Of a stretch of 64,000 nt of DNA, positions 11,622 through 37,565 are shown in pieces (the first letter of the stretch is position 1; the number at the start of each line of letters is the position of its first letter). Under the pieces are notes generated by a model. That model saw only the letters and a program-made list of their open reading frames with translations. It was not told the DNA's origin and ran no database searches. This stretch comes from Rhizobium sp. BT03 (GTDB lineage: Bacteria > Pseudomonadota > Alphaproteobacteria > Rhizobiales > Rhizobiaceae). The stretch spans positions 3,756,001 through 3,820,000 of the forward strand of contig NZ_CP125640.1 in NCBI RefSeq assembly GCF_030053155.1. Direction: 5' to 3'. The translations under genes were made by a program, and so were the position numbers.

Positions 11622-11632
11622 ATTATCGCCTC

Positions 11633-11690
11633 CTACAGCGCCGCGCGTCTTTTCAGACGCGCAAAGGACGCTGTAATATTTCGAATTGCT
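11633..11690. repeat. RIME1-like intergenic mosaic element
   Basis: An inner hairpin GCGCGTCT-TTTC-AGACGCGC lies within an outer pair ACAGCG/CGCTGT, followed by AATTGCT. This is the layout I know from the Rhizobium intergenic mosaic element repeated through rhizobial chromosomes. It sits between two co-oriented GT genes and touches the ribosome site of the downstream one. Confidence 0.6.
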
Positions 11691-11702
11691 AAGGCCAATC
11701 GA

Positions 11703-12647: not shown

Positions 12648-12726
12648 CAGTGACCAACCCTCTTGGTGAAGTCGAAAGAGAAAAGCCTCATATTTTGACT
12701 GCCTGTGCGATGTTCGAACAAACGGT

Positions 12727-13548: not shown

Positions 13549-13560
13549 CGAATAACCCCC

Positions 13561-14586: not shown

Positions 14587-14617
14587 TCTGCCTCACTTGT
14601 TAAGGTTCGTTTTAGCG

Positions 14618-16120: not shown

Positions 16121-16271
16121 GGGCGAACCGCTCCCGAGGTGGAGAACATCGACCGCTTGAGCGGGCCGCATGCCCATCCAAGGTGCCTCTGCTCCTTGCG
16201 GGTGCAGAGGGTATCGATGAAGTTGGAAAGCATCATGCCTTATTGCCTCGTCACGAAACCGGTTTGCGACC

Positions 16272-17677: not shown

Positions 17678-18828
17678 CAAGTCCGACCCCGGCTGGAAAA
17701 TTCGTCTAGCACGGAACTGTAATAGTCCTCGAGCATCCCCGTCTGACGACGTAAGTCGAAGCGCTCGGCCACCAGAAGCGGTGCCCGCGCGCTGAAGGCT
17801 GTCCACAGGGACTGGTCGTTGAGCAGCCTTCCGACCGCGTCCGCCATTCCCGCGACATCCCGCTCCTCCACGAGATAACCAGTTTTCCCCTCTTCGATCG
17901 CTTCGCCCACGCCTCCCGAGCGAAATGCGACGACCGGAGTCCCGACGGCTTCGGCCTCCAGATTGGCGAGGCCGAACGCTTCGGCGTGACCATTGTCGAG
18001 TGTCACGCTGCCATGAAGATAAAGCTCCGCACTGGCGAGCAGATCCCTTATCTCAGTCTGCGACAGATTTTCATGGATCGTGACGCTTGGCAAGGAACGA
18101 CGCGCCAACGCCTCGATTTCCTGTTTCAGCGGTCCCTGACCCACCATGACGAATTCGACCGGCGTGCCGGTCGCCGCCACGCGCGACAGCGCGTCGATCA
18201 TGAAGCGGTGGCCCTTATAGTCGACGAAACGGGCAATGGAAACCACCAGGCCTTTTTTTCGAGGGCGCGGCTCCATTTTGAAGAGATCGAGATCGATGCC
18301 GATATGGTGGCGATAGACGCGGTCGGCGCGAAAGCCGAGCGCCAGCAGCCGGTCGCGGATGAAGTCGGAGACGGCGATGTTCCAGCTGTTCCAGCCGGCC
18401 ATCTCGCTGCGGCCCTTGGCGAAGAAGCGCACCTGATTGAAGCCGCCCGGCTTTTTCGGATCGCCGCCATAGGTGGCGTCGAAGCCGTGGAATGTCGTGA
18501 CCAGCGGCTTGCCGGCGGCGCGTGCCAGGGGCCCGATGACATAACCGTTCTTGCCGAAATGGGCGTGAACGAGATCGGCATTGCCGATCGCCGGAAACAG
18601 AAAGGGAAGACCGATCTGCGGGATTTTCAGAAGCAGTTCACCGGCCCGCGCAACGGGAGACCGACGGATGTCATGAACCGGAACAGTGGATTTTTTGGTA
18701 TGGGCGGAAGAAATTCGCGAACCGGCAAGAATTTCAGCTTCGAAAGAACGAAATGCCACCGCCTGGTTGAGAACAAATGCCTGGCTGGCAGGCAAAAATT
18801 TTTCCACGTAAATAACGGCTTTTCTCAT
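17677..18828 (-). CDS. GT4 family glycosyltransferase
   Basis: The 383-aa GT-B enzyme shows VHAHFGKNGY, TTFHGFDATYGG, the mid-domain SIARFVDYKGH, and the nucleotide-sugar site EAFGLANLEAEAVGTPVV with the E-x7-E pattern. It is probably a retaining transferase acting on the EPS side chain. The ribosome site is weak. It is the first GT of the leftward series and is followed by the overlapping acyltransferase gene. Confidence 0.8.
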   Translation of the reverse strand: MRKAVIYVEKFLPASQAFVLNQAVAFRSFEAEILAGSRISSAHTKKSTVPVHDIRRSPVARAGELLLKIPQIGLPFLFPAIGNADLVHAHFGKNGYVIGPLARAAGKPLVTTFHGFDATYGGDPKKPGGFNQVRFFAKGRSEMAGWNSWNIAVSDFIRDRLLALGFRADRVYRHHIGIDLDLFKMEPRPRKKGLVVSIARFVDYKGHRFMIDALSRVAATGTPVEFVMVGQGPLKQEIEALARRSLPSVTIHENLSQTEIRDLLASAELYLHGSVTLDNGHAEAFGLANLEAEAVGTPVVAFRSGGVGEAIEEGKTGYLVEERDVAGMADAVGRLLNDQSLWTAFSARAPLLVAERFDLRRQTGMLEDYYSSVLDEFSSRGRT

Positions 18829-18859
18829 GAATCTGTCGACGTCTCCGTTGTCTTGCGCA

Positions 18860-19933
18860 TCACATCGCCTCTATTGCCCGTCGGATGCCGTCAACCGCAC
18901 TTCTCGGCGCGTTGTTTTCGTCGTAGAGATTAACGCGCTTCGTGCACGCCGCCTCGGGACCGGCCGCCTTCTCGTCGGGCTCGCCGTATCTCTCCGACAT
19001 GCCCCATACCGTCACGCCTTTCAAGTCGCCACGTTCGGCCGCCACGGTGATGACGTCACTGAAAATATCGGCGTATGACGCCGGCGTGAAGCTTTTGTCA
19101 CGGTTCAGGAAGTGGCAGGAGGCGTCGAGTTCGGTGATGAAAACGCCGATACCCATGTCCTTCAGCGCCGCGCAGAAGCGCCCCATTGCTTCCGGGTCGA
19201 TGCGGTCGAGGCCGGGGCGGAAATGTGCCTGCAGCCCCACCGCGTTGATCGGCGTTTTCCTGGCGACGAGGTCCTCGACGATTTTCAGGATGCGCGTGCG
19301 CTTCTGTTCGAAGACGTCGGATTTTTTCTCCAGATGCGTTTCGTTGAGCACCAGCGTTGCGCCGGGATTGGCCTGATGCGCCATGTCGAAGCTCATACGG
19401 ATATAGTCGTCGCCAAGAAGGCGTCGGAAAACACAATCCCGCAGATCCGGCGCATCATATTCCAACGGCTCGTTCACCACATCCCAAGCGTCGATCGAGT
19501 TCTTATAGCGAGTGACAACCTGTTTTATATGACGGTTCATCGCCGCCTGAATCGTCTTGGCGTCGGTGATATCAGACACCCATTCCGGGACGCGATACCA
19601 GATCAGCGTATGGCCATAAACTCTCATGTTGTTTTTGCGCGCAAATGCAACCATAAGGTCGGCACTCTTGAAGCTGAAAACACCCGGTCTCTTTTCCGTC
19701 GCATTCCATTTCAGCTCGTTTCGCGGCGTTATCGAATTGACGTTGTCGATATAGATCCCGGAAGCGATCGGGTCGTCGATGTTCTGCAGGTCGATTGCCG
19801 ATCCGAATCGGAACGACTTGCTGTCGGCAAGGGCGCGCAACCCTCTCGCCGGAGACACCTGTGCCAGGACGTGGCCTGCATTGGCGTACAACAGAGCAAG
19901 CGGAATCGAGGCGAGGAAACGTCTTCTATTCAT
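18860..19933 (-). CDS. Tat-exported GH10 glycanase (endo-1,4-beta-xylanase family)
   Basis: The 357-aa product starts NRRRFLASIPLALLYANAG, a twin-arginine signal. GH10 motifs follow: YGHTLIWY (~106-113), WDVVNEP with acid/base Glu155, and FITELDAS with nucleophile Glu268. WGMSERYGEP near the end matches the family's last active-site strand. GH10 enzymes cut beta-1,4 xylan or glucan chains. Here, heading the EPS series, it more likely trims or releases EPS than degrades plant xylan. Export folded through Tat would place it in the periplasm or outside. Confidence 0.8.
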   Translation of the reverse strand: MNRRRFLASIPLALLYANAGHVLAQVSPARGLRALADSKSFRFGSAIDLQNIDDPIASGIYIDNVNSITPRNELKWNATEKRPGVFSFKSADLMVAFARKNNMRVYGHTLIWYRVPEWVSDITDAKTIQAAMNRHIKQVVTRYKNSIDAWDVVNEPLEYDAPDLRDCVFRRLLGDDYIRMSFDMAHQANPGATLVLNETHLEKKSDVFEQKRTRILKIVEDLVARKTPINAVGLQAHFRPGLDRIDPEAMGRFCAALKDMGIGVFITELDASCHFLNRDKSFTPASYADIFSDVITVAAERGDLKGVTVWGMSERYGEPDEKAAGPEAACTKRVNLYDENNAPRSAVDGIRRAIEAM

Positions 19934-22495: not shown

Positions 22496-22789
22496 GTGCT
22501 TCACCTGCAGAGATACGGCGATCTGCGGTTGATCGAGACGAATGGCGACCCGGTCCGCTCTCCGATCAAGGGGCTGTTGACGATGGCCCATATCTATGCC
22601 CGAGCTGTGAACTCAGCCATTATGGGTTGGCTCAGTTTCTGCGGAGCGACGTCAAAGCTGAGGGCGGTATATTCAATGGCGAAAATTGGCATCGTGGGGA
22701 TAGCTGGCGGGGCGGAGGCGGTCGTTGCCGCCTGGTCGGCGTCGCTGCGCCTTGCGGCCGCCACGTCGACAGCCGAGGCGTCATTCTGA
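22496..22789 (+). CDS. Short ORF coupled to ycaO (possible peptide or frameshifted YcaO N-terminus)
   Basis: The frame runs from GTG 22496, nine bases after the regulator and with GAGGACGGAG before it, to a TGA that overlaps the first possible start of YcaO. The 3' part from ATG 22678 gives 37 residues, MAKIGIVGIAGGAEAVVAAW and then an Ala/Ser/Thr-rich tail, with a ribosome-like GAGGGCGG upstream. It could be a small precursor or partner peptide. Alternatively, one extra base near 22782 would join TSTAEA directly to ILTRRVHYSD of YcaO, making this the true YcaO N-terminus. Confidence 0.35.
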   Translation: MLHLQRYGDLRLIETNGDPVRSPIKGLLTMAHIYARAVNSAIMGWLSFCGATSKLRAVYSMAKIGIVGIAGGAEAVVAAWSASLRLAAATSTAEASF

Positions 22790-24009
22790 CGCGCCGGGTC
22801 CACTATTCCGACAGGATCATATCGCCGGGGGAAACTCTTTCCCGCGTCGAACCATTCTTGGCCAGGTTCGGCATCACCAGGGTTGCGCGACATACCGGAT
22901 TGGACGACATCGGAATCCCTGTCTGGTGCGCCTATGCCCCGAATTCGCGGTCGATCGTGATTGCTCAGGGAAAGGGCCTGACCGATCTGGACGCCAAGGT
23001 ATCCACAATCATGGAGGCGCTCGAACGAGCCGTCGCCGGCGAACCCTTCGTCAAGCGCATCCACGGTTCCTCTGCCCGCCTGCAGGCAATGGGCTGCCAG
23101 GCCGACAGATTGAGCTGCCTGACCGCCGTCCATAAACCCGATCTCGGGCCGGATGACGAGACCGAATGGGTTGCCGGCGTCAATATCCTCAGCGGCGAAG
23201 AGATCCACATTCCCTTCGAAGCGGTGGTGCTCGACCGGACGCGTGACGCGCGATACTGGATGTCGTCGGATGGCCTGGCTTCGGGAAACAGTGCCGAGGA
23301 AGCAATCTTTCATGGCGTGCTGGAGCGTATCGAGCGTGACGCTCATGTGCTGTGGCAGGTGGGCGGAGAAGCCGATCGTTATGCCGGCTGCGTCGATCCC
23401 CGCGGCTTTGCGGACGATGCCCTCAACGGGCTGATCGACAAAATCGAAGCATCGGGATTGGCGCTCAGGCTGTTCGATATCACCAGCGACATCGCAATCC
23501 CCTGTTTCACCGCCATGCTGGGGCCTGGGGAGCTAAATCAGGGCGCCAGGCATCCTAATGCCGACAGGGACATTCGCCTCGTCGAGGTAACCGGCGGCAC
23601 CGGGGCGCATCCGTCCCCCGTCCGCGCGGCCATTCGGGCGGTGACGGAAGCCGTGCAATCCCGGCTGACCTATATCAGCGGCGCCAGGGACGATATTTCT
23701 CCTGCAACTTTCTTGAGATCCCTCCCGCCGATGATGCGGCGGGCCTTCGATGCGGTTGCCGCACCGCCTGCCGCCCTGCACGGTGACGGCGCGGCAGGAT
23801 ATCGGCCACAGGATCTGACGCAGCAGTTGCAGCATGTGCTTGACGCTCTCAGCAACCGAGGGATCGCCTCGGTCATCTGGGTTCACCTCAGCGACGACAC
23901 GCTTCCCTTCAGCGTCGTCAAGGTGGTTATTCCCGAGCTCGAAAATCCCGAGGGGGAGCGCGCCCGGCGATTTGGAACAAGGGCTCTGGCCAAGGCGATG
24001 GGGTTTTGA
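22786..24009 (+). CDS. YcaO-type cyclodehydratase/thioamidating enzyme (TfuA-associated)
   Basis: The core of ~407 aa begins LTRRVHYSDRIISPGETL and includes RHTGLDDIGIPVWCAY, GKGLTDLDAKVSTIMEALER and SDGLASGNSAEEAIFHGVLE, the ATP-binding features of YcaO proteins. VEVTGGTGAHPSPVRAAI also fits. YcaO enzymes activate peptide amides with ATP; with TfuA partners some install thioamides. No ATG, GTG or TTG is available near the conserved N-terminus. CTG 22786 (or ATT 22783) overlaps the previous stop in a CTGA arrangement, and the only other in-frame start is TTG 22627. The next gene overlaps by TTGA. Confidence 0.75.
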   Translation: MTRRVHYSDRIISPGETLSRVEPFLARFGITRVARHTGLDDIGIPVWCAYAPNSRSIVIAQGKGLTDLDAKVSTIMEALERAVAGEPFVKRIHGSSARLQAMGCQADRLSCLTAVHKPDLGPDDETEWVAGVNILSGEEIHIPFEAVVLDRTRDARYWMSSDGLASGNSAEEAIFHGVLERIERDAHVLWQVGGEADRYAGCVDPRGFADDALNGLIDKIEASGLALRLFDITSDIAIPCFTAMLGPGELNQGARHPNADRDIRLVEVTGGTGAHPSPVRAAIRAVTEAVQSRLTYISGARDDISPATFLRSLPPMMRRAFDAVAAPPAALHGDGAAGYRPQDLTQQLQHVLDALSNRGIASVIWVHLSDDTLPFSVVKVVIPELENPEGERARRFGTRALAKAMGF

Positions 24010-24713
24010 AGATCATTTTCGCAGGTCCCAGTCTTTCCGATGCGGCATCGCTTGCCGGCGAGGCGGTATGCGTCCTGCCGCCTGCGATGCAGGGCGATGT
24101 CCTGGCTCAGGTGGAGCAGGGCGCCAATGTCATCGGCCTGATCGACGGCGGCTTCGAATATGCCGCACCGGTCTGGCACAAGGAAATTCTCCATGCTCTC
24201 TCGCTGGGCGTGGCCGTTTTCGGGGCCGCAAGCATGGGCGCCTTGCGGGCAGCGGAATGTCATCCGTTCGGGATGATCGGGCTCGGCCGCATTTTCGAGG
24301 ACTATCGCACCGGCCGGCTGGTCGACGATGCCGCCGTCGCACTCATGCATGCGCCGAGCGCGCTGGGCAGCAAGCCGCTGACGATACCGCTCGTCAATGT
24401 CAGCGCCACGCTCGATGCGATGGAGGACAGGGGGCTGCTGGCAGGTGGATTGCGCCAGGCGCTCGAAGATGCGGCAAACGCGATCTTTTTCAAGAAGCGG
24501 ACGTGGCGGGCGATCGTCGGGCAATGTGCTGACATAGCCGAGCCGGATCGTCCGCAGCTGCTGGCGGCGCTTTTTTCGAATTCCGTCGATCAAAAACGCC
24601 TCGATGCCCTGGAATTGCTGAAAGCCGTACAGGACGCACGCGACATCCGCTCGAACGCCGATCTGCCCTGGAAACTGCACGCAACCGCGTTCCATACCCG
24701 TCCTGCATTGTAA
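24006..24713 (+). CDS. TfuA-family protein
   Basis: The 235-aa product begins KIIFAGPSLSD and contains VIGLIDGGFEYAAPVWHKEI and VFGAASMGALRAAEC, the characteristic core of TfuA, first seen in the trifolitoxin cluster. In archaea and actinomycetes TfuA partners YcaO in thioamide formation, probably by helping sulfur delivery. The TTG start overlaps the YcaO stop (TTGA), so the partners are co-translated. No dehydrogenase, peptidase or exporter lies beside it, unlike typical azoline-peptide clusters. Confidence 0.8.
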   Translation: MKIIFAGPSLSDAASLAGEAVCVLPPAMQGDVLAQVEQGANVIGLIDGGFEYAAPVWHKEILHALSLGVAVFGAASMGALRAAECHPFGMIGLGRIFEDYRTGRLVDDAAVALMHAPSALGSKPLTIPLVNVSATLDAMEDRGLLAGGLRQALEDAANAIFFKKRTWRAIVGQCADIAEPDRPQLLAALFSNSVDQKRLDALELLKAVQDARDIRSNADLPWKLHATAFHTRPAL

Positions 24714-25762: not shown

Positions 25763-26908
25763 CAGGTCGGCTCCCTCACTACTTACAGTGACCATGACAC
25801 AAATTATAAGTTGAGCAAGCAAATGCTTTATCAAGGGTTAATTCCCTGTCGAGGTGCGACCATTTCGACACAGGTGTGGCATATCATAAGACGCCTTTGG
25901 CGTGTTGAACGGGATGGGCTCGACGAGGGCCGGCCGTTTGGTGTCGACAGGATCGCGAACGAGGCTGACGCTACGACTTGGCGTCGGGATCTCGATCGTA
26001 TATGCCGGAACCCATGCGCCGGGCTGAAACGGACGCACCGGCTGCTGGCGACAGAAGCGGCGGAACTGCGCCGTTCTTGCGGCCTAACCATTTGATTTAG
26101 CAATATATCGCATCATCGTACTTCTCCGCTGCCGTCATTCGGCGGTCCTAAGCTGCATCGGCAACGCTCGGGCACGCGGTCATTTCCATGGCTGTCGGGC
26201 CATCGCTGGTGATCCCCTCGTCGGGATGCCCGGCAAATTAGCGGGCGGCTGAAACCCAAGGTGAGAAGCGGTTTCAACCGATTTTTTGCTCTCCTGAAAA
26301 ACTGGAACCGAGGTCGGCGGCAATTGAAGACAGAATAAACTGCGGCCGACAATCATGGTGATCAAGAAAATTTTTATCAAAAGGTTAAATTATAAGTTTC
26401 AGATGGAGGTTGTATTTAAATATCAATTAAAAGATGACTTAAATCTTATATGTATATAATCACAGGATGTACTGTATTGTTGTTGGTTCGGATTTATTAA
26501 GTGTCTATCATGTCCATATATCGGCTGCGTGACGTTGACTGTTGGTAAAATTACATCGTGTCATTCATAAATGGCGGCCCGCAATTGAGATATAGCTTCT
26601 GATGTTGCTGGCGCGAGCGGCGGAGCTCCTATCCGTCGGAAAATGTGAGCTTGTCTCGTCAGGCTGATCTCTGCCGGGCGATATCACTATTCCAAGCAAT
26701 ATTTTCTATACGAGACAAAGACGACAGCAATCGCATTTGTGGCGAGCCGCAGGGAAGCAAAGCAGAGGACCCGCCGGGGTGGGTGACGGGTCCTCCAGTA
26801 TAAATGCTTGCACAGTGCGTAGATATAATTGCAGTTAAATCGTGTATTGTCACACATCATTATTGGGCTGATGGTTTTTTCACGAGTTTCATCGATTTTT
26901 ACTTGTTG
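25763..26908. other. Long gene-poor region, AT-rich between 26.35 and 26.6 kb
   Basis: No convincing gene. Two minus-strand frames have protein-like composition. One at 25838-26038 includes GAWVPAYTIEIPTPSRS. The other, at 26180-26380, starts with a signal-like IKIFLITMIVGRSLFCLQ. Both are short and proline-rich and could be pieces of one broken exported-protein gene. The AT-rich part has no open frame of note. A strong hairpin at 26765-26795 ends the region. Confidence 0.4.
26765..26795 (-). terminator. Hairpin downstream of the glycan operon
   Basis: GAGGACCCG and CGGGTCCTC pair perfectly over nine bases with a 13-nt loop, 114 bases past the last gene of the leftward operon. A T-containing stretch follows in that direction. 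It is a likely terminator or transcript-end stabiliser. Confidence 0.5.
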
Positions 26909-28093
26909 CTATTCTGGCGAAATATCACATTTTGCAGTGTGATGGCGAGATGTTGACTGGTCAGCCGCCAGGCATCGCTTTTGCCGTGACGAGGTCGCAG
27001 CAGAGCATTGCCGATCGATTTCCGACAAGCGCCGCAGCAATGTTTTTGTCCTGAAGCGCGACCAACCGCCCACCAAGGAGGAAAGTGGATCTATCTCGTC
27101 GAATTTCTTGACATTCTTTTCCTCACTTTCCCTGACCGGCCAAGCTTTGGCCAATGTCCTGCGTGCCGCTCGGTTGGCCTTTGTGAAGATCAACCTGGCC
27201 AGCACGGCGGAAGCGAGCATGGGGCTATGATGATAGATGTGCTTCAGCGAGGTCCTGGCGCTGTGCCAATCTTTCAAGATCGCAAATTTCGAAAATGCAT
27301 AAAGATGCGCCGAAGCGCGGGCGCAGCTGATGACAAAAGCCGGCAGGTCCGAGTTGCGGGCAATACATTGCTCGGTCACCGCCAGAAGGGATCTAGCCAT
27401 CCGTGATTTATCTGCAGACATGGCCTCGGAGTGAATGCGATATCCCACCAGGCCCAGCGGCACCGTCTCGATTTTGAAATGCTCGGCCGTACGGAGTTCG
27501 AAATCGAAATCCTCGCATCCGCCAATCCCCTGCCTGGCATAGCGCGGATCGTAGCCGCCGATCTTGTCGACGACGGCGCGGCGAACCATGAAGCCGCTGC
27601 CATTGCCGACGAAGCGGAAGACGAGATGACGCGCTAAAATGCAGCCCCGGGCGTTCAGCGACGAGCCGGATTTCGTGCAATATCCCTCGGAATCGATAAA
27701 GCGGTGAAGAGCATAAACCGCCCCCCAGGCGTCCGGCAGAGGATGGAGAGCCGAAAGCATGCGCTCGACATAGGTCGGATGCCATAGATCGTCGGCATCG
27801 AGGAAGGCGATATAGCCTGAGGTCGATGCCTCAATTCCGATATTGCGGGCGGCAGCGACGCCGCGGTTGGCTGTCGACAAAAGCTTGAACCTTGGATCTC
27901 CGGCTGCGAAGCGGCGACAGATGGACGCCGTCTCGTCGGTCGAGCCGTCGTCGACGATGATGATTTCCAGTGCCTTGTGGGTCTGATCGACAACCGATTG
28001 GAGTGTCTGGGCAAGGTAGGGGCTGGCATTATAGGCGGGGATCACGACCGCCACCTCAATCCCTGATATGGCCGAAAGTTCCATCGCCGTCAC
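26909..28093 (-). CDS. GT2 family glycosyltransferase
   Basis: The 394-aa product has VAVVIPAYNASPYLAQTLQS, IIIVDDGSTDETAS, IAFLDADDLWHP and a GCEDFDFELR segment matching the GT2 acceptor/base region. A C-terminal extension (~280-394) of unknown function is basic and low in complexity near the end. The GTG start overlaps the ABC exporter stop (GTGA). It is the last gene of the six-gene operon. Confidence 0.8.
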   Translation of the reverse strand: MTAMELSAISGIEVAVVIPAYNASPYLAQTLQSVVDQTHKALEIIIVDDGSTDETASICRRFAAGDPRFKLLSTANRGVAAARNIGIEASTSGYIAFLDADDLWHPTYVERMLSALHPLPDAWGAVYALHRFIDSEGYCTKSGSSLNARGCILARHLVFRFVGNGSGFMVRRAVVDKIGGYDPRYARQGIGGCEDFDFELRTAEHFKIETVPLGLVGYRIHSEAMSADKSRMARSLLAVTEQCIARNSDLPAFVISCARASAHLYAFSKFAILKDWHSARTSLKHIYHHSPMLASAVLARLIFTKANRAARRTLAKAWPVRESEEKNVKKFDEIDPLSSLVGGWSRFRTKTLLRRLSEIDRQCSAATSSRQKRCLAADQSTSRHHTAKCDISPE

Positions 28094-29844
28094 CCGAGCC
28101 TGGAGGTGGATGTGGGCGGGCTAAGATCGATGCGGTTTTTCATCAGCCGGGCGACAGCCGGCCGATGGCTGACGACGATCAGCGTTCTGCCGGCGTCTTC
28201 CTTCATCGCCGCAAACACTCGCATCTCGGTATCCTCGTCGAGCGCGCTCGTGGCTTCGTCCAGCAGCAGGATCCGAGGCCGGCCGGCGAGCGCGCGCGCC
28301 AGGCCGATGCGCTGCCTTTGGCCGCCCGAAAGCCGGATCGCTTCGTCGCCCAGCCATTCATCGAAGCCATAAGGCAGATCTTCGATGAACTCCGTGGCGC
28401 AAGCCAGATCGGCGGCCCACCGGATATCCTCCTCCGAGATATCGCGCCGAAACCTTATGTTGTCGAGTACCGTGCCCTCCATCAGCTCGACGTCCTGGCC
28501 CGACACGGAGAGCAGTTGCAGCCAGCTGGAGCGGTCGACCGTTGCGAGATCCCTGCCGTCGACCGTGATCCTGCCTTGGGTCGGCCGGCTGAGGTCGAGG
28601 ATCATGTTGAGGATCGTCGTTTTGCCGGAGCCGCTTGGCCCCGTCAGAGCGGTCGTCTCGCCTGCTGGGATCGAAAAGCTGAGATTGCTGACAGCCGGGG
28701 CATTCGCACGCTCATAAGCGAATGAGACATCATGGAAGACGATCGCCTCTGCGAGGCGCGTTACCGGCTGGCCTTTCGAGGCGTGTTTGATGTCGTCTTT
28801 TTCGGAAAGCAGCGCCAGAACGTTCTGCAGCGACGCTTCCATCTCGTAAAGGCTGAGGATCTGGGAGTCGAATCCTTTGATATGCGGCTGGAGCCTGTAA
28901 AGAAGGATGGTGGCCGAGAGTGCCGCCTTGAAATCCACCGGCAGGAACTCCGAGGACAGAATGATCGTCAGGATGACCCCGAAGGTCAGGATCTCGCTCA
29001 GAAGCGAGGTCATCGCCCCCATCCAGTCCGACCGGCGCCAGGTCTGGCCGACATCGCTGGAAAGCGCCTCGAAGAGGTGCTGATGACGTTTTTCCAAGCC
29101 GAAGCTTTTGACGGCTTTTAAAGTCTGCAAAGTTGTCCAGCTCAACTGCGTCAAGGCTTCCACCGCCGACAGCGCCGAAGCGCCGAGCCGGCGGTAGGCA
29201 CCGGCAAACAGACCCAGCGCGAAATTGTGGATGAAGCCGAAAGCGAGCCCAAGCAAGGCGATCGGCCAGGCCATGACCAGCATGCCGACGCCGAAGATCA
29301 CGATCGTGCCGAAATTCACCCCCAGACGCACCAGGCTGGCATGCGCCGACGATACCGCGTAGGATTCGGTCGCGATGACGTTGATCAGGTCGCTCCGCTC
29401 ATAATCCTGAAAGCGCTGGAACGGGATGGTCAGGACCTTGGCGTAGAGGCGGTCGCGCATGCGATCGCTGATGCGGTGGTTGACGGTGCTTGATATGAGC
29501 GCATTGGCACATCCCAGAAAGATCCGGAACAGGATGGAGCCGATGAGGATGCCGATCAGGACAGGCTTTGAAAGACTGAGGTCGATGCCGCCGAAAAACG
29601 CCGGAAGCCATGCAACGGCGGAGCCGGAAACCGGGCCTTGCTGCCCGAGAAGAAAGACGAGGCTGACCAGAAAGGTGATGCCGACCATTTCCGAGAAGCC
29701 GGTGAGAATTCCGAGGATGATCATCACGGTCATCTTCAGCCGCAGCCCCGGCACTAGCCGCTGAAGCTCGCGGAACCGCGCGGCGACGATCAGATTGTAG
29801 GCTCTGGCGGGCTTGGGGGAGGCGGGTTTCCGAAACCTGTTCAT
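28090..29844 (-). CDS. ABC exporter, MsbA/PglK-like (fused membrane and ATPase domains)
   Basis: The 584-aa product has a six-span membrane domain (~25-300) and an ATPase domain (~350-575). ATPase motifs are LTGPSGSGKTTILNMILDL (Walker A), the Q-loop in SVSGQDVELMEGT, signature RLSGGQRQRIGLARAL, Walker B RILLLDEATSALDE and VVSHRP. Half-size exporters of this type flip lipid-linked sugars (PglK) or lipids (MsbA). Among glycosyltransferase genes a lipid-linked glycan is the likely cargo, by inference. Start ATG 29844 overlaps the preceding GT2 stop (ATGA). Confidence 0.85.
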   Translation of the reverse strand: MNRFRKPASPKPARAYNLIVAARFRELQRLVPGLRLKMTVMIILGILTGFSEMVGITFLVSLVFLLGQQGPVSGSAVAWLPAFFGGIDLSLSKPVLIGILIGSILFRIFLGCANALISSTVNHRISDRMRDRLYAKVLTIPFQRFQDYERSDLINVIATESYAVSSAHASLVRLGVNFGTIVIFGVGMLVMAWPIALLGLAFGFIHNFALGLFAGAYRRLGASALSAVEALTQLSWTTLQTLKAVKSFGLEKRHQHLFEALSSDVGQTWRRSDWMGAMTSLLSEILTFGVILTIILSSEFLPVDFKAALSATILLYRLQPHIKGFDSQILSLYEMEASLQNVLALLSEKDDIKHASKGQPVTRLAEAIVFHDVSFAYERANAPAVSNLSFSIPAGETTALTGPSGSGKTTILNMILDLSRPTQGRITVDGRDLATVDRSSWLQLLSVSGQDVELMEGTVLDNIRFRRDISEEDIRWAADLACATEFIEDLPYGFDEWLGDEAIRLSGGQRQRIGLARALAGRPRILLLDEATSALDEDTEMRVFAAMKEDAGRTLIVVSHRPAVARLMKNRIDLSPPTSTSRLG

Positions 29845-30905
29845 GGCCGGCCATCCCTGGTCAGGCTCATCGCCTCTCCGACAGGCGCGGTGGTGAAACG
29901 ATCGCTGAATGCCGTTCCGGCTTGCGGAATGGTCGCCGCAAAGCGGGTTTTCGGTCGGGCCGGGGGTTTTCCGAGGGCGCGCCTTGCGATCTTGATGCCC
30001 TGGCGTTTGGCCTGCCGCCAGCTTTCCTGCACGCCATGGACGAGCAGCTGCGGCGTATATTGTCTCAGCATCATCGGCGTGAGCTTGTTGAGCTGGGCAT
30101 AATCGCCGTCGAAAAAGGCCTTCTTGAAATACCAGCGCGCAGTGTTGAATTGGGCGGCGCGGATATCCCGCGCCAGGCGCGGATGGCGGGTGATGATCGG
30201 GGCCATCACCAGGGCGTGGGATTTCAGCATGCGATAGGCGTTGCTGGACATGTTTCCCCGGGTGAAGCGATAGCCGGTGAGGAAATCCGGGACCAGGGCG
30301 AAGGGCAGGGTCTCGGCGAGCGCCAGATAGAGTTTCAGATCCTCGCAACCTTCCGCACCGGCGTCGCGCAGCCCGGCGTCATAGCCGCCGCAGGCAAGGA
30401 CCGCCGCACGCGGCATCAAAGGTGTGCTGCCATTGCCGATGAAGTTTTCCCTCAGCAGCGGTTCGAAGATGTCGCCTTGATGCAGGACCGGCCGCGAATG
30501 GCCGAAAATAATGCCGTTTTCGTCGATCGCCGCATACCAGTTGTAGGCCACCCCTTGTCCCTCGGGAAATTTCGCCAGCGCCTGCAGCTGGAGTTCGATT
30601 TTCTCGGGATGCCAGATGTCGTCGGCATCGACGGGTGCGATATAGAGGCCGCGCGCCTCTTGGATGCCGTGGTTGCGGGCGCGCGCCACGCCGCCATTTT
30701 CCTGGCGGAGAACCCGGACGCGGCCGTCGGTGAGGCCATAATCGCGGGCGAGATCGAAGGTGCCGTCCCGCGATCCGTCGTCGACCACCAAGATTTCAAG
30801 CTTGCCGTAGGACTGGTTGGTGATGCTTGTCAGCGTTTCCAAGAGCGTCTTCTCGGCGTTGTAGGCCGGTATGACAACGGTGATGAGGGGGCTCGCGGCG
30901 TTCAT
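29841..30905 (-). CDS. GT2 family glycosyltransferase
   Basis: The 354-aa product begins at MNAASPLITVVIPAYNAEKT, with ILVVDDGSRDGTFD, APVDADDIWHPEK and GCEDLKLYLALAE. The upstream extension of the frame overlaps the fusion gene in another phase and is rejected. It is closely similar in layout to the GT2 at 26.9 kb, suggesting duplication within the operon. It lies seven bases after the fusion gene and overlaps the exporter gene by four bases. Confidence 0.8.
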   Translation of the reverse strand: MNAASPLITVVIPAYNAEKTLLETLTSITNQSYGKLEILVVDDGSRDGTFDLARDYGLTDGRVRVLRQENGGVARARNHGIQEARGLYIAPVDADDIWHPEKIELQLQALAKFPEGQGVAYNWYAAIDENGIIFGHSRPVLHQGDIFEPLLRENFIGNGSTPLMPRAAVLACGGYDAGLRDAGAEGCEDLKLYLALAETLPFALVPDFLTGYRFTRGNMSSNAYRMLKSHALVMAPIITRHPRLARDIRAAQFNTARWYFKKAFFDGDYAQLNKLTPMMLRQYTPQLLVHGVQESWRQAKRQGIKIARRALGKPPARPKTRFAATIPQAGTAFSDRFTTAPVGEAMSLTRDGRP

Positions 30906-30912
30906 GACTTTG

Positions 30913-33900
30913 TCATCCGATAAAGGCGCCCGGCAGGCCCATGAGTTCAGGGAAGGTTTCGAGCGGGCGATCGCCGCGGACTTCGAGACGCGGCAGTGCG
31001 AAAAGATTGTCGGAGAGGGCGGCCTTGGCCGGCCGTGTCGTAAAGCCGATCCCGTAGCCCGCCAGCGCCAGAATGCCCGGGACCCGGAAGTCCGTCGCGC
31101 CATAGGGAAGGGCGATCGACACCACCGAGCCGCCCAGCCGGTTCTGCAACGCATGGCGCGAGCGCATGGCTTCGCTAAGCACGGCTTGGCTCTCCATGCC
31201 GCTCGCCGGCGTGTGGGATGCGAGATGCGAGCCGAAGCTGATGCCCTTTTTGCTGAGCTCCTGAATCTCCGGCCACGACATCAGGGGCGCCGGCTCGCCA
31301 TAGGACGAATCCCAATCCGAGCGGCCGCCGACCTTGTCGGTGACGACGAACACCTCGGCGCTGAAGTCGTTCTCGGCAAGGATCGGGAAGGCGTCGGTGC
31401 GGAAATCGACATAGGCGTCGTCGAAAGTCAGCATGACGGGCCGGCCCTGGATCGGCTTGCCGCTGCGCAGGAGATCGGCGAGCGTCGGCGCCGTCACGGC
31501 GTAATAACCCTGCCGGCGCAGGAACTGCATCTGCTTGCGGAAGTGCTCCGGCGTGGTACGGAAGCGCCGCAGCGCGGCGGGGCCGTTCTCGGCGATCCGG
31601 TGATACATCAGGATGGGGACCGAGGCCGTCACTTCAGTCGTCCATGCCGCCCCGCGGTCGACGCCGGCAGGTCCCCAGATGACGTGTTTGGCGACATCGG
31701 CCTCCAACGGCGTTCCATGCGTCTCGAGCCGCAGGGCGGGACTGACGACGGTGCCTTTGCGGAACCGGTGGATGGCGTAGAGCTCGGTTTCGATCGTCTC
31801 TTCCAGCGCAAGCCCGGCCTGCTCGGCGAAGACCCGCCTGATCGTCCCGGCGCCGAAGGGGTTGCCCCAGTCGAAACCGGTTCTTGCCGGTTCGTCGCGG
31901 CGGATATGCGCATGGGCGGTGATCAGGCAGCCGCCCGGCTTTAAGGCCGCCGCCATCTTCCGGCAGACGGCCGCAAGCATCGCCTCGTCCTTCATGTAAT
32001 AAAGCACTTCGGAGCAGACGACGAGATCCTGTTGCGGCGGAAGATCTTCTCTTGCGAAGTCGAGAACGCGGAGCTCGACATTTTCACGATCGCGGCAGCG
32101 CTCGATCGCCCTGTCGATCGCCCGCTGGGAAATATCCGTGGCCGTTACGCGAGCAACCTCTTGCGCCAGCTTCTCGGTGAAGATCCCTTCGGCGCAGGCA
32201 AGCTCCAGGGCCGTCTCCACCCCTTCCGGGATCAGGCTCAGCGTCTGCGCATATTTGACCTGCTCATAGACCGAGACGTAATTCCAGGGATCCGGGCGTT
32301 CGAAAATATGCTCCCAGTATTCTTCCTCGGTTTGAATGCCAGGCGTCTCTTTTGCCTCGTCCGGCCGCGGGCCGGCGGGTTCGCCACATTGCGGGCTCAG
32401 ACCGCGCCCTGCAGTGCGAAGCATGTCGGCCAGCTGCGCGTCGTTGTCCTGTTTGTCGCCTGGTGCCCGGGCAAGGATGGCGTTGCGGCCGATCCGCACC
32501 AGCAGCCGTTGGAGACGGCCCCGCCGCCGGCCGCTGCGGATGATGAGACCGCCGAAGCTTCTGTAGCCGCGCAGCGCCTCCCTCGTCCACGAACCGGCAT
32601 AGGCCAGCGTCGGCGGCGGCCGAAGATGCTCGTCGGCCCGCATTTCCTCCATGATCAGCCGGATCTGCGCCCGGATCGACAGATCGCCCCAGAACGGCCC
32701 GACGAAGGTGCCGATATGCGCGTCGCCCGAAAAAGCGTGCATGACCAGTGTATCGGACTGCTCGGCCTTGGAGATTCTGGAAAGCGCGCCGATCTCGACG
32801 CTGACCACCTGGATATTGCCGAGCGTGAAGGATCGCCGAAGGTTCCCGGACGATAGCTGCCAGGCGGCGGCCTCGAGGATCTTGCGGCCGGTGCCGGGGA
32901 AGGAATGACGCTGGATCAGCTCGACGAGCAGACGGAACGTCGGCCACCATCGGTCGGGCGCATCGAGGAGATCGTCGGCCCGATCGGGGAGGAGGCCCGT
33001 CTGCAGGCCGTGCAGAATCACGCCGGCAAAAAAGCTCTCGTAACCCGCGGCATCCGGCATCTCAGGCAGCAATGCGGCAAGGGCTGCGATATCCACGGCC
33101 GGATCGCGCTTCGCCGCGGCGACCCAGACAAGCATGCGCAATTGGCTGATGGCGGGCGTGATCCAGCCCGTCTCCGGCCCCTCGTCCGGCACGCCCTGCT
33201 GCATGCGCAGCACGTCCGCCTTCGTCGTCACGCGAATGGCGTCCCGCACCATTTTGACCGGATCGCCGGAAAGCGAGCCCGCCTTCATGCGATAGAAGGA
33301 GAGGCAGGCGTCGACACGGCGAAATTCCGCGCCCGCAAAGGCCATGCGCATCCAGAGATCCCAGTCCTCGCAGGTCCGCAGGGTCTCATCCATGCCGCCG
33401 ACATGCTCGAACAGGCTTTTGGGAAAGACGACCGTATGAATGGCGAGCGCACAGAAGGACGAGAATTCGCGCCTGGCGACATCGCCGGCGAGGGTGGGGG
33501 CCTGCTCGACCGGCATCAGCCGGCCGTCCGGGGCGACACGGCGGTAAGAGCAATAGGCGATGTCGGGCGCAGATCTATCCTCTGCCACCGGCAGCATGGT
33601 TTCGATGAAGGCGGGATCCAGCCAGTCGTCGGCATCCAGCATGCAGAGCAGCGGCGCGGCAGCCAGTCTTGCTGCATGGTTTCGCGCCGCCGCGGCGCCG
33701 GCGTTCGGCTGGCGGGCGGGGAGAATGCGGCTATCCTCTCCGGCGATCTGCTCGAGAAGCTCCCAGCTATTGTCGGTCGAGCCGTCATCGATCACCACGG
33801 CCTGCCAGTTCGATCGGCTCTGCCGCTGCAGGCTCTCAAGACATTCGGCCAGCGTCTCGCCCGCATTATAGGCGGGGATGAGGAAGCAGATTTCGGGCGC

Positions 33901-33915
33901 GGCCACTGTCACCAT
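30913..33915 (-). CDS. Three-domain fusion: GT2 glycosyltransferase, SAM methyltransferase (NodS-like), polysaccharide deacetylase (NodB-like)
   Basis: The product is 1000 aa from MVTVAAPEICFLIPAYNAGE. Residues ~8-230 are a GT2 domain (VVIDDGSTDNS; metal motif LDADD ~93-97; CEDWDLWMRM ~182-191). Residues ~330-520 are an unrecognised linker. Residues ~529-720 form a methyltransferase: YWEHIFERPDPWNY, SAM motif ALELACAEG (~569-577), CSEVLYYM and LKPGGCLITAHAH. Residues ~766-985 form a polysaccharide deacetylase: PILMYHRI, TFDDAY (~830-835), metal His pair in SHLASH (~896-901), and ALPYG (~935-939). The frame stays open far upstream, but that part is the antiphase of the next GT2 gene. One protein could extend, methylate and de-N-acetylate a glycan. 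No frameshift was seen. Confidence 0.8.
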   Translation of the reverse strand: MVTVAAPEICFLIPAYNAGETLAECLESLQRQSRSNWQAVVIDDGSTDNSWELLEQIAGEDSRILPARQPNAGAAAARNHAARLAAAPLLCMLDADDWLDPAFIETMLPVAEDRSAPDIAYCSYRRVAPDGRLMPVEQAPTLAGDVARREFSSFCALAIHTVVFPKSLFEHVGGMDETLRTCEDWDLWMRMAFAGAEFRRVDACLSFYRMKAGSLSGDPVKMVRDAIRVTTKADVLRMQQGVPDEGPETGWITPAISQLRMLVWVAAAKRDPAVDIAALAALLPEMPDAAGYESFFAGVILHGLQTGLLPDRADDLLDAPDRWWPTFRLLVELIQRHSFPGTGRKILEAAAWQLSSGNLRRSFTLGNIQVVSVEIGALSRISKAEQSDTLVMHAFSGDAHIGTFVGPFWGDLSIRAQIRLIMEEMRADEHLRPPPTLAYAGSWTREALRGYRSFGGLIIRSGRRRGRLQRLLVRIGRNAILARAPGDKQDNDAQLADMLRTAGRGLSPQCGEPAGPRPDEAKETPGIQTEEEYWEHIFERPDPWNYVSVYEQVKYAQTLSLIPEGVETALELACAEGIFTEKLAQEVARVTATDISQRAIDRAIERCRDRENVELRVLDFAREDLPPQQDLVVCSEVLYYMKDEAMLAAVCRKMAAALKPGGCLITAHAHIRRDEPARTGFDWGNPFGAGTIRRVFAEQAGLALEETIETELYAIHRFRKGTVVSPALRLETHGTPLEADVAKHVIWGPAGVDRGAAWTTEVTASVPILMYHRIAENGPAALRRFRTTPEHFRKQMQFLRRQGYYAVTAPTLADLLRSGKPIQGRPVMLTFDDAYVDFRTDAFPILAENDFSAEVFVVTDKVGGRSDWDSSYGEPAPLMSWPEIQELSKKGISFGSHLASHTPASGMESQAVLSEAMRSRHALQNRLGGSVVSIALPYGATDFRVPGILALAGYGIGFTTRPAKAALSDNLFALPRLEVRGDRPLETFPELMGLPGAFIG

Positions 33916-35087
33916 GCGCGCATCTTCCAGCGGCGCAGCACATAGAGAGCGCCATTGACGCTGCCGAGCATCTCCTGCTTCAGGAAAAAGTCGTTCGACG
34001 TCGCGCCCTTGCGGAACCGTCGGCGCAGCCTGCCGATATAATATTTCGGGAAGGAGACGAGGACGCGCCGGAGATTGCCGCCATTGCCGGTATGCTGATA
34101 CTGCACCAGCAGGGCGGCGATATGGCCGCTCATATATTGGTAGATCTGTTTGGCGAGCCCCTTCATATCCTTGCGGTGAAAGTGCCAGGAGACCGCCGTC
34201 GGCTCGTAGCGGCAGACATGGCCGTGATGCAGCAGCCGGTTCCAATATTCGGAATCGCCCGAGCAGCCGGCCGCACCCATATCCAGGCGGACATCGAACA
34301 GGCCGATCGCGTCGAACACCTCGCGGCGGAAGGCCTGGCTGGCGCCGGCGCCAATCGTCCAGACCGGGGCGCCGTAACGCCGATGCAGGCGGTAGAAATC
34401 CTGGTCGAAATCCTGCCTGAGATAACCCCGGCCGAAACTCCAATGTTTTTCGAAGATGAACTGCGCCGGCGTTGCCAGTTCGCCGGGCAGCACCAGCCCG
34501 GTGACGCAGGCGATCTCGGGCCGGTCGAAGGCCTTCATCAGGTTCTCCAGCCATTGCCGATGGAGGACCACATCATCGTCGGTAAAGGCGACGAACTCGG
34601 TTTTCGCCGCCCGAACCGCCGCATTGCGGGCAAAATCCAGCCCGACCCGGTCCTCGCGGACATAGGTGGCGCCGGCTTCTTCGGCCACGCGACGGGTCTG
34701 ATCGCCTGAGGAGGCATTGTCGACGACGATGATGGCGACGGGACGGAGCGATTGTTCGGGGATCGAGGCGAGGCACCGGCGCAGTTCCTCCGGCCGGTCC
34801 TTGGTGCAGATCAGAATGCTGACGTCGCGATTGCGCAGCGGCGTTTGCGCGACCCGGGCGATATGCTCGAGCGTATCCGGCCGCACGGCACGCTCGGCCA
34901 GTGCCGCCGCGGCCTCCGGCTTTTCGACATAGGCCTGCCCGACCGGAAGACCATCCGACAGAAACACCACCAGCCCGTCGGAGAGCGGCGGCGACACGGC
35001 GTCGATATGGCCGGATGCCAGATCGAGATAGTGAATCGGTACGGGGAAGTTCACATCCTTCAAATCGGACGGTATTGATTCACGCAT
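33909..35087 (-). CDS. GT2 family glycosyltransferase with N-terminal extension
   Basis: The 392-aa product has an extra N-terminal region (~1-85) before the GT2 core (DVSILICTKDRPEELRRCLA; IIVVDNASSGDQT; FVAFTDDDVVLHRQW). The later segment CSGDSEYWNRLLHHGH fits the acceptor site, and basic membrane-proximal helices end the protein. ATG 35087 is chosen because GAGAG sits seven bases before it; ATG 35093 lies too close. It overlaps the fusion gene by seven bases. Confidence 0.8.
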   Translation of the reverse strand: MRESIPSDLKDVNFPVPIHYLDLASGHIDAVSPPLSDGLVVFLSDGLPVGQAYVEKPEAAAALAERAVRPDTLEHIARVAQTPLRNRDVSILICTKDRPEELRRCLASIPEQSLRPVAIIVVDNASSGDQTRRVAEEAGATYVREDRVGLDFARNAAVRAAKTEFVAFTDDDVVLHRQWLENLMKAFDRPEIACVTGLVLPGELATPAQFIFEKHWSFGRGYLRQDFDQDFYRLHRRYGAPVWTIGAGASQAFRREVFDAIGLFDVRLDMGAAGCSGDSEYWNRLLHHGHVCRYEPTAVSWHFHRKDMKGLAKQIYQYMSGHIAALLVQYQHTGNGGNLRRVLVSFPKYYIGRLRRRFRKGATSNDFFLKQEMLGSVNGALYVLRRWKMRAW

Positions 35088-35159
35088 TACCATTCTCTCA
35101 AATCGTACCGTGAGCATACGCCGCGCCGTCAAGGACGCGAAGCCCGAAAGCCGTGATGA

Positions 35160-36116
35160 TTATTCCGCCGCGCCGAGGTTTACTTTTGCCCGGAACCAGT
35201 CGAGCGTCATGGCGACGCCCTGCTCGTAGCTGATCTTGCACGACCATTCCGGCATGACGTAGTTGGCATTGGTCAGGTCGGGCCGCCTGTTGGTGGGGTC
35301 CTGCGGCGGTGACGGCTCGAAGACGATCGGCACGCCGCCGACCAGCTTGGACACATATTGGGCGACTTCGAGAACCGAAATCTCGCGATCGTTGCCGACG
35401 TTCAGGGGTCCCTTGTAGTCGGTTTCGTTGATCCAGAAATAGCGTGCGAAACCATCGACGACGTCGTCGACATAGCCCCAGCTGCGCGACTGTTTGCCAT
35501 CGCCGAACACGGTGATCGGCCGGCCCGCCAGCGCCTGGGTGATGAAGTTGGAGACGGCGCGGCCGTCATCGGGGCGTGTGCGCGGACCGTAAATGTTGAA
35601 GGGACGCACGACCTTGAGGTCGAGCCCCTGGGTGCGCTGCATTTCGAACAGCAGCGATTCCGTGCAGCGCTTGCTCTCGTCGTAGGACGAGCGCGGTCCG
35701 GTGCAATCCACCTGGCCTTTGTAGGTCTCCGGCTGCGGCGACACCAGCGGGTCGCCATAGACTTCGGAGGTCGAGGTGAAGCCGAAACGCCCGCCCTTCT
35801 TCAAGAGCTCCAGCAGCCGGAATGCCCCGAGAAGATTGGCGGAAATCGTCCGCTTCGGTTCCTTCATATACCATGGCGGCGATGCCGGGGACGCCAGATG
35901 GTAGATCTCATCGAATTTTTCGGAGCTGCGCAGCGTCTCGACGTCCGATTTCACGAAGTGAAAACGCGGATCCCTGATGTGGGCGATATTGTCGAAAAGT
36001 CCGGTCCAGAGGTTGTCAACAACGACCAGCTTCTGGACGTCTGTTCTAAGTAAAAGCCGATCGCACAAATGCGACCCGATAAATCCAGCCCCGCCAGAAA
36101 TCAATACGCTTTTCAT
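35160..36116 (-). CDS. NAD-dependent nucleotide-sugar epimerase/dehydratase (UDP-glucuronate decarboxylase-like)
   Basis: The 318-aa extended SDR begins SVLISGGAGFIGSHLCDRL, with TSTSEVYGDP, catalytic Tyr/Lys in SSYDESKR, RPFNIYGPRTRPDDGRAV and a C-terminal NRRPDLTNA. These resemble UDP-xylose synthase (UXS) more than GalE. It would make UDP-xylose or a related sugar donor, probably for the downstream transferases. Start MKSVLIS is set by the Rossmann motif. It is the first gene of the six-gene operon; the ~300 bases before it are AT-rich. Confidence 0.75.
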   Translation of the reverse strand: MKSVLISGGAGFIGSHLCDRLLLRTDVQKLVVVDNLWTGLFDNIAHIRDPRFHFVKSDVETLRSSEKFDEIYHLASPASPPWYMKEPKRTISANLLGAFRLLELLKKGGRFGFTSTSEVYGDPLVSPQPETYKGQVDCTGPRSSYDESKRCTESLLFEMQRTQGLDLKVVRPFNIYGPRTRPDDGRAVSNFITQALAGRPITVFGDGKQSRSWGYVDDVVDGFARYFWINETDYKGPLNVGNDREISVLEVAQYVSKLVGGVPIVFEPSPPQDPTNRRPDLTNANYVMPEWSCKISYEQGVAMTLDWFRAKVNLGAAE

Positions 36117-36410
36117 TGCATTGCGCCTTGTGACGTTTGAGAGGTGGGTGTTTATTAGCATCACCTTTAAGGCGTGGCAATTCATTAGAAATGTTCTAGA
36201 AAATACTCGCTTATTAATCTTAATTATTGATATGTTTTACTTATGGTAGTACCGGCGGATGAGGCGTCGAGCAACCGCGCTCGAGCCCGCCCGCCGATCG
36301 CGACGGTTTTGTATCACGAGGGCGCCGGCGGGCGCATCGGGCTAAAGTCTGACTCGATCTTCGCAGTCACGATGCAGAGTTCAGGCGATGCACCACGCCG
36401 GCGCGTCGGC
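36117..36410. promoter_or_regulatory. AT-rich region upstream of the glycan operon
   Basis: There is no gene here. The part at 36160-36250 is very AT-rich and is the probable promoter of the leftward operon. The ampC gene also ends here. Confidence 0.4.
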
Positions 36411-37565
36411 TCAGTCGGCCGAAAGCGCCGTCAGGATCTGATAGGCCGCGGCGACGCGATCCTCGTTGGGATAGTTCTTATTGGCCAGGATGACGATGCC
36501 GAGCCGCTGTTTCGGGATGAAGGCGACATAGGCGCCGAAGCCGTTGGTCGAGCCGGTCTTGTTGATCCAGACATCGTCGCGCGGCTGCATCGGCGGCCGC
36601 AGTTCCGAGACCGGCATGGTCTTCAGCATCGCCGGCGAATTGCCCTCCAGCAAATCGTTCAAGGCGGCGGGATAGGCATATTGCTCCCAGATGAGATCCT
36701 GGGTCATCGCCCCTGCTTTGAAATATCCGATATGGGTGTCGGCGATGGCCCGCTGCAGTTTTTCGCCGAGCTTGACCGTGCCCATATTGGCGCCGACGAA
36801 ACGGATCAAATCGCCTGCGGTGGATTTGACGCCATAGGCTTCGGCCGAAAGCATGGCCGGCGTCATCCGGGCCGGCTCGCCGCCGCGCTTATACCCTTGC
36901 GCATAGTCGGCCTGCCGCGCTTTCGGCACATCGATATAGGTGTTTTTCAAGCCCAGCGCGGCAAACAGCCTGCCTTCCATCAAACCGGCAAAATCCCCGT
37001 GCATGGCTTTCGCGACGATACGGCCGAGCATGCCGATGCTGGGATTGGCGTAACTTCTCTGCGTCCCCGCCGCATAGGAAGGCTGCCAGGCCTCGAAATA
37101 GCCGAGCAGCTGTTTTTCTGTCTTGACCTCGTCGGGAAGCTGCAGCGGAAATCCGCCTGCCGTATGGGTGGCCAGATTCATCAGGGCGACATCGCCGAAC
37201 GGCTTTCCCGCCATTCCCGGCAGATATTTGCCGACCTTGTGCGACAGCGAGAGCTGTCCGCTCGTTTGCGCATAGGATGCCAGCGTCACCGTAAAGGTCT
37301 TGCTGATCGATCCGAGTTCGAACAGCGTGGTCGGCGCCACCGGCTTGCCGGTGTCCTTGGATTCGACGCCATAAGTGAAGATGTGGTCCCGGCCGTCGGC
37401 GCTGATGGCGACCGCAATGCCGGGGATGGCGTATTTCGCCATGATCGGCTCGATCGCGGCATCCGCGATCGCCTTCACCGCCGTTTCGTCGGCGGCAAAA
37501 GCGCTTGTGGAGGCGCAGGCCGAAAGCAAAACGGCCGATAAAATTCTTATCCCAATACTGTTCAT
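36411..37565 (-). CDS. ampC: Class C beta-lactamase (AmpC)
   Basis: The 384-aa product has a signal peptide (IRILSAVLLSACASTSAFA), then the class C motifs: SISK with the catalytic serine, SYANPS (Y-x-N) and KTG in INKTGSTNGFG. Length is normal for AmpC. It is periplasmic and hydrolyses cephalosporins and related beta-lactams. GGAGG lies nine bases before ATG 37565; two ATGs just upstream are too near that site. It is divergent from an AmpR-type regulator. Confidence 0.85.
   Translation of the reverse strand: MNSIGIRILSAVLLSACASTSAFAADETAVKAIADAAIEPIMAKYAIPGIAVAISADGRDHIFTYGVESKDTGKPVAPTTLFELGSISKTFTVTLASYAQTSGQLSLSHKVGKYLPGMAGKPFGDVALMNLATHTAGGFPLQLPDEVKTEKQLLGYFEAWQPSYAAGTQRSYANPSIGMLGRIVAKAMHGDFAGLMEGRLFAALGLKNTYIDVPKARQADYAQGYKRGGEPARMTPAMLSAEAYGVKSTAGDLIRFVGANMGTVKLGEKLQRAIADTHIGYFKAGAMTQDLIWEQYAYPAALNDLLEGNSPAMLKTMPVSELRPPMQPRDDVWINKTGSTNGFGAYVAFIPKQRLGIVILANKNYPNEDRVAAAYQILTALSAD

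Follow-up and report, generated by a model that had tools for sequence, protein, structure and literature searches.

A single-chain fusion of a GT2 glycosyltransferase, a NodS-type methyltransferase and a CE4 deacetylase in an apparent surface-glycan gene set of Rhizobium sp. BT03

WbdD of Escherichia coli O9a is described in the available text of PMC3482155 as a multi-domain enzyme that ends a glycan chain. Its methyltransferase is structurally most similar to NodS and RebM, and a domain of Wzt recognizes the chain end before export. In the Nod pathway, according to the accessible part of PMC5080398, NodS N-methylates only after deacetylation. Analysis of a 64,000-nucleotide stretch of Rhizobium sp. 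BT03 (contig NZ_CP125640.1, positions 3,756,001 to 3,820,000 of the forward strand; here called the window) revealed a gene encoding a glycosyltransferase family 2 (GT2) domain, a NodS-type S-adenosylmethionine (SAM)-dependent methyltransferase and a carbohydrate esterase family 4 (CE4) deacetylase in one chain, here called the trifunctional protein. Many close Rhizobium relatives are named "trifunctional glycosyltransferase/class I SAM-dependent methyltransferase/polysaccharide deacetylase" at NCBI, and others "glycosyltransferase". The domain architecture has thus already been named and is not new as such. No functional paper on the fused protein was recognized in the open-access literature (most subscription papers lay outside this search), and the term "deacetylase" does not occur in the accessible parts of PMC6628131 and PMC4696191.

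Translation of the minus strand gave one reading frame of 1000 residues with an ATG start and a TGA stop. Pfam analysis revealed Glycos_transf_2 at residues 11-133 (E 3.8e-29), NodS at residues 540-699 (E 1.7e-22) and Polysacc_deac_1 at residues 823-954 (E 2.1e-17), all above their gathering scores. The motifs from which the sequence-only reading of this DNA had deduced three enzymes in one chain were all recovered: LDADD (93-97), ALELACAEG (569-577), TFDDAY (830-835), SHLASH (896-901) and ALPYG (935-939). The mechanical open frame can be extended upstream as far as 34554. The start at 33915 was preferred because the extension overlaps the upstream GT2 gene and because close homologs have about 1000 residues and the same start. 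The predicted structure of the full protein reached a pLDDT of 90.2, and hydropathy analysis revealed no membrane segment (highest 19-residue mean, 1.37). These results confirm the single-chain fusion of the three domains, which at this locus lie in a single gene and not in separate ones.

The distribution of the protein was determined in several genome samples. In the homolog search, 7994 candidates were scored, 410 homologs were found at E <= 0.001, and 120 were listed; among the matches listed, three simple motifs (DPW, T/SFDD and the acidic GT2 motif) were kept in 116 of 120. Relatives P0002 to P0047 share 75-82% identity with the trifunctional protein and have the same length and domain content. 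The full-length protein is encoded in 16 of 60 genomes of the same genus (including BT03) and a version of about 40% identity in 5 of the 60; one of 40 genomes from other families of the order has a relative. Some match at E <= 0.001 was found in 97 of these 100 genomes, mostly to a single domain. In a sample of 289 genomes of the class, 19 genomes matched at E <= 1e-40; among the matches listed, that of the BT03 genome alone covered the whole profile, and those of the other 18 genomes covered one domain. A scan of named genomes for six short peptide patterns returned 73 loci; 33 encode the full protein, all in Rhizobium or unnamed Rhizobiales, and in the remaining 40 the match is confined to the GT2 part. 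The fusion is therefore not an artefact of one assembly, because it recurs in 16 of the 60 genomes and 33 of the 73 loci. The Nei-Gojobori ratio of nonsynonymous to synonymous substitution rates (dN/dS) did not exceed 0.56 in any of the five segments compared for the 33 pairs, apart from one saturated segment of one pair, which gave no value. By domain, the ratios against the 33 homologs spanned 0.15-0.26 (GT2), 0.08-0.22 (methyltransferase) and 0.12-0.23 (deacetylase), and in the linker they reached 0.56; those of more distant pairs are rough, as synonymous sites are near saturation. Judged by these ratios, the gene is under purifying selection.

The catalytic residues were compared in an alignment of 61 homologs selected for full length. 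In the deacetylase domain, D832, D833, H897, H901, P937 and R976 are invariant in all 61. The domain has the CE4 fold with the catalytic and metal-binding aspartates and both metal-binding histidines, so that the metal site is intact, and loss of its metal residues, which would have spoken against the sequence-only reading, was not seen. The best sequence and fold matches were PplD, PgaB and IcaB. The score against the PgaB model TIGR03938 was 71.9 bits, below the equivalog cut-off of 321.9, and the IcaB cut-off was likewise not reached. The GT2 domain has the GT-A fold with an acidic metal motif. Residues D94, D96, D97 and E183 are invariant in the 61 homologs; at position 184, 54 of them have D and 7 have E.

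About 190 residues between the GT2 domain and the methyltransferase had been noted as matching no recognized family. In the structure model, helices at residues 219-357 continue the GT2 domain, and some GT2 structures align up to model residues 329-368 (the fold search reports first and last residues only). The beta part of the linker matches no known family. Residues 363-407 form a small beta sheet of high confidence, which includes the invariant D388; less confident helices follow, and then a stretch (511-526) with pLDDT below 50. Fold matches obtained with the full model say little about the linker. A separate prediction of the linker from an alignment of 19 rows had a mean pLDDT of 51.8 and was left out of the fold search. 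A profile comparison of the linker with the N-terminal unit of the upstream GT2 was in register and suggestive (P 0.0043, probability 7.9%; neighboring linker parts gave P 0.45 and 0.33). This match was too weak to claim a copy of that unit, and the candidate was rejected.

The methyltransferase domain belongs to the NodS family, as had been predicted: it scored 80.7 bits against PF05401 (gathering cut-off, 24). Against the NodS equivalog model NF041650 of NCBIfam, it scored 91.7 bits, below the cut-off of 300; the next-best NCBIfam model scored 38.7 bits. In a search of the BT03 genome, the domain was the second-best NodS match (91.2 bits; third-best, 25.2), and BLASTP showed 33.5% identity to the genome's NodS. 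Comparison with five NodS proteins, all of which exceed the NodS cut-off, revealed that 27 of 60 strongly conserved positions are common to all, mostly in the SAM site and the EVLY motif.

NodS matches at E <= 1e-15 were found in 3 of the 289 class genomes, including BT03. Apart from nodS and the window gene, this search led to three loci; a CE4 gene is adjacent at L131 and absent from the flanks read of the other two. At L131 (7-2826; another alphaproteobacterium), the CE4 gene comes after a membrane-protein-like frame that continues as a NodS-type domain; the membrane-like part looked flippase-like by eye and had no Pfam match at 1e-5. Seven further loci were inspected. Six of these carry NodS-type, NodC-type and CE4-type frames together and are ordinary nod sets (the four that were scored all pass the NodS cut-off), and the seventh, L140, has neither deacetylase motif. 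A general association of NodS-type methyltransferases with deacetylases was dropped as support, since only 3 of 289 class genomes match and the flanks are mixed.

The genuine Nod genes of BT03 were identified by profile searches on contig C4 (nodC, 760.5 bits; nodS, 341.8; nodB, 320.3), apart from the window, which lies on the 4.5-Mb contig C1. Because of these genes, the trifunctional protein is assigned to a system separate from Nod factor synthesis. NodC is a membrane-embedded processive synthase. The GT2 part scored 27.5 bits against the NodC model TIGR04242 (cut-off, 550), and BLASTP showed 27.9% identity to the genome's NodC over 107 residues. At E <= 0.001, the NodB model TIGR04243 matched nodB on C4 and one other place in the genome, and the trifunctional gene was not among these matches; nor did BLASTP match its deacetylase domain to the genome's NodB at E <= 1e-4. 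A second NodB-like deacetylase (83.7 bits) is encoded on the largest contig (C1:1128027-1128494). A scan with a 20-base nod-box-like motif gave no match in the window and, as a positive control, three in the 19.9 kb around the genome's nod genes. Pfam matches of the six neighboring genes included no NodA. Of the earlier proposal that the chemistries of NodC, NodS and NodB are united here, the three chemistries and the NodS family stand; close kinship to NodC and NodB does not, in view of the NodC score, the miss by the NodB model and the lack of a membrane segment. A one-chain synthase of Nod-factor-like lipo-chitooligosaccharides, which follows the three chemistries named in the sequence-only reading and would also fit the adjacent exporter, was rejected as extremely improbable on the strength of the NodB, NodC and NodS searches of the genome and the absence of nod-box-like motifs from the window.

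The trifunctional gene is the third of a presumed operon (Table 1), whose first gene encodes a relative of UDP-glucuronate decarboxylase (UDP-xylose synthase, UXS) that reaches no NCBIfam cut-off. The upstream GT2 and trifunctional genes overlap by 7 bp, a 7-bp gap precedes the downstream GT2 gene, and 4-bp overlaps join the latter to the exporter gene and the exporter gene to the last GT2 gene. We infer that the six genes are co-transcribed. A scan of positions 26500-36700 revealed no convincing promoter (1 site versus 2.6 expected in shuffled sequence; terminators, 7 versus 8.1 expected). The last five genes stand in the same order in all 33 loci encoding the trifunctional protein, among them that of R. 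johnstonii 3841 (L049), a plant symbiont. The UXS relative is present in 32, one of which has no more than a 42-residue piece of it at the locus end. The exporter and the last GT2 are more variable across these loci (identity down to 42% and 41%, respectively). Among the matches listed, 12 homologs exceed 1150 residues; in 11 of them the C terminus is extended by a relative of the downstream GT2, and in one, P0104, the N terminus is extended by a protein related to the upstream GT2. These fusions tie the enzyme to both neighboring GT2s. The trifunctional protein is conserved and appears to be active, within a group of genes that looks suited to building and exporting a surface glycan.

Table 1. 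Positions in the window of the trifunctional gene, its parts and the neighboring genes
Feature	Positions	Strand	Basis
UXS relative, first gene of presumed operon	35160..36185	-	E 1.2e-75 to chain 2b69
Upstream GT2, 402 aa from ATG 35117 (later starts possible)	33909..35117	-	Pfam
Trifunctional gene, 1000 aa (GT2/NodS-type methyltransferase/CE4 deacetylase)	30913..33915	-	Frame, Pfam, homologs, structure model
GT2 domain, residues 1-235	33211..33915	-	Pfam, fold match, alignment
Helical extension of GT2, residues 219-357	32845..33261	-	Helices in structure model
Linker, residues 360-526	32338..32838	-	Beta unit, then helices, then low-confidence stretch 511-526
NodS-type SAM methyltransferase, residues 527-725	31741..32337	-	Pfam, NCBIfam, alignment
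CE4 deacetylase, residues 760-1000	30916..31638	-	Pfam, fold match, alignment
Downstream GT2	29841..30905	-	Pfam
Single-chain ABC exporter, 584 aa	28090..29844	-	Best NCBIfam HepA and MsbA, below cut-offs
Last GT2 of presumed operon	26909..28093	-	Pfam

Two further gene groups were noted in the window. A YcaO gene (PF02624, 1.2e-63) overlaps a TfuA gene (PF07812, 2.1e-40) at 22627-24713 on the plus strand, and YcaO relatives adjoin the cassette in all four other genomes read at this place (G007, G055, G044 and G038). At about 9100-19930 on the minus strand, GT2s, two pyruvyltransferases, a flippase, an acetyltransferase-type protein and a group 1 glycosyltransferase stand in the order of the Pss-I exopolysaccharide region. 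The names in this region were taken from gene order and the available part of PMC9961541.

The reading that we prefer, to which we give about an even chance, is that the protein is a cytoplasmic enzyme that adds an N-acetylhexosamine (HexNAc), deacetylates it and N-methylates the resulting amine before export. The protein would be soluble and would act within a small surface-glycan operon. Its GT2 domain would add a sugar, most likely HexNAc, to a membrane-bound, probably lipid-linked oligosaccharide, its CE4 domain would take the N-acetyl group off that sugar, and its NodS-type domain would then use SAM to methylate the amine so exposed. Both flanking GT2s, upstream and downstream, may act on the same chain, one of them perhaps with UDP-xylose from the product of the first gene, and the ABC exporter would carry the completed product, a short glycan or glycolipid, through the inner membrane. 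This order of steps is proposed because N-methylation follows deacetylation in the Nod pathway, as far as the accessible part of PMC5080398 describes it; by that analogy, the order first suggested for this protein, methylation before de-N-acetylation, is probably reversed.

Several observations weigh against the proposed sequence of addition, deacetylation and N-methylation. On the acceptor side of the methyltransferase, the conserved positions at residues 667-682 agree with NodS in none of six cases, and three are absent from NodS; the acceptor, and possibly the methylated atom, therefore probably differs from that of NodS. NodS-type methyltransferases also occur with no deacetylase in the flanks read (L129 and L130/L132, the latter adjoining an acyl-CoA-dehydrogenase frame). 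Homolog P0063 of Sinorhizobium numidicum (693 residues) lacks residues 324-640, the linker and the SAM-binding half, and keeps GT2 and CE4. No literature on a glycan with the predicted residue was recognized, and the donor and the acceptor of the GT2 domain are themselves predictions. The acceptor side and P0063 would both suit a second explanation, in which the methyltransferase O-methylates a hydroxyl group, for example of a deoxyhexose or uronic acid, the CE4 domain deacetylates another sugar, and the fusion only co-locates the enzymes. Rhizobium O-antigens commonly carry O-methylated sugars. The bit scores speak against such unlinked edits, as they place the domain nearest to the N-methyltransferase NodS, and so does the presence of a deacetylase beside the methyltransferase in all 61 aligned rows, although these had been chosen for full length. 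We regard this explanation as possible but doubtful.

Comparison of the site in other genomes revealed a second cassette. In G007, G055 and G044, the UXS gene (91-97% identity to that of the window) and the YcaO gene flank a different gene set. It comprises a GT2, a protein related to the upstream GT2 (34-36%), a Wzm-type permease, the 40% version of the trifunctional protein and a protein related to the downstream GT2 (42-46%). The permease and GT2 of G044 were confirmed by Pfam. In G007, an ABC ATPase with a Wzt C-terminal (Wzt_C) domain adjoins the permease, and the 40% version (L114:7655-10698) consists of two frames of 462 and 548 residues in different phases, which reflects a split or a frameshift. 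Beside the UXS gene of G044 lies a 63-residue piece (L118:3657-3845) with 76% identity to the upstream GT2 of the window; this remnant suggests that the second cassette replaced the first there. G093, from another family, has relatives of five proteins of the window set encoded together, with identities of 44% to the UXS relative, 52% to the upstream GT2, 37% to the trifunctional protein, 44% to the downstream GT2 and 34% to the single-chain exporter. Across the three locus types seen, the UXS relative, the two GT2s and the trifunctional protein thus stay together while the exporter differs.

The second cassette bears on a third explanation, namely that the enzyme acts as WbdD does: by adding, deacetylating and methylating the last non-reducing sugar, it would halt extension and tag the chain for its transporter. 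In all five genomes with the 40% version, a Wzt C-terminal carbohydrate-binding domain is encoded no more than 2 kb from the trifunctional gene, and WbdD ends its chain with a NodS/RebM-like methyltransferase at an end that the Wzt domain recognizes (PMC3482155, in its available part). The gene set of the window has a single-chain exporter instead. No Wzt_C domain is near the gene in the four window-type genomes tested (two lack a match altogether, and in two the match is over 1.9 Mb distant), G093 likewise lacks one, and in all three 40% loci read, the Wzm-type and trifunctional genes lie on opposite strands. The explanation, which is argued by analogy, was kept as a rival because the 40% version fits it while the window version has no Wzt nearby; we consider it unlikely. 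A broader proposal, which we regard as speculative and improbable, is that a single polypeptide makes, in three steps, an N-methylated amino sugar at the chain end, and that this sugar is a new kind of signal: it would terminate synthesis and license export, whichever of two unrelated transporters is present. Whole cassettes with the trifunctional enzyme would be swapped by Rhizobium at one chromosomal site, changing its surface glycan, and the methyltransferase would come from the stock that gave the symbiotic NodS.

If the preferred chemistry of addition, deacetylation and N-methylation holds, rhizobia would decorate a surface glycan, independently of Nod factors, with an amino sugar that is N-methylated and positively charged, a feature that plants could read. 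The enzyme would then be a compact, assayable one-chain model of sequential catalysis. Since it occurs beside two different exporters, it would also make it possible to test directly whether export is licensed by end caps.

Among known systems, the NCBI-named trifunctional proteins are the same family as the window protein, under a name that rests on domains only. The third domain resembles PplD, PgaB and IcaB in sequence and fold; it differs from them in its fusion to a GT2 and a methyltransferase and in the absence of a signal peptide or membrane segment by hydropathy. NodS differs in its acceptor side and in its location on the nod contig, whereas the trifunctional gene sits on the largest contig. 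The Pss-I region of Rhizobium leguminosarum has its counterpart in the same window and on the same strand, starting about 7 kb from the cassette. It consists of separate genes, and in the three genomes read with the second cassette type, the cassette was exchanged and the flanks were kept. WbdD, a kinase-methyltransferase, differs from the window protein, which has a GT2 and a deacetylase in place of the kinase and no Wzt_C domain near its gene. Both are multi-domain glycan enzymes that belong to ABC export pathways and contain a methyltransferase of NodS-like fold, and the 40% version shares with the WbdD/Wzt system the proximity of a Wzt carbohydrate-binding domain.
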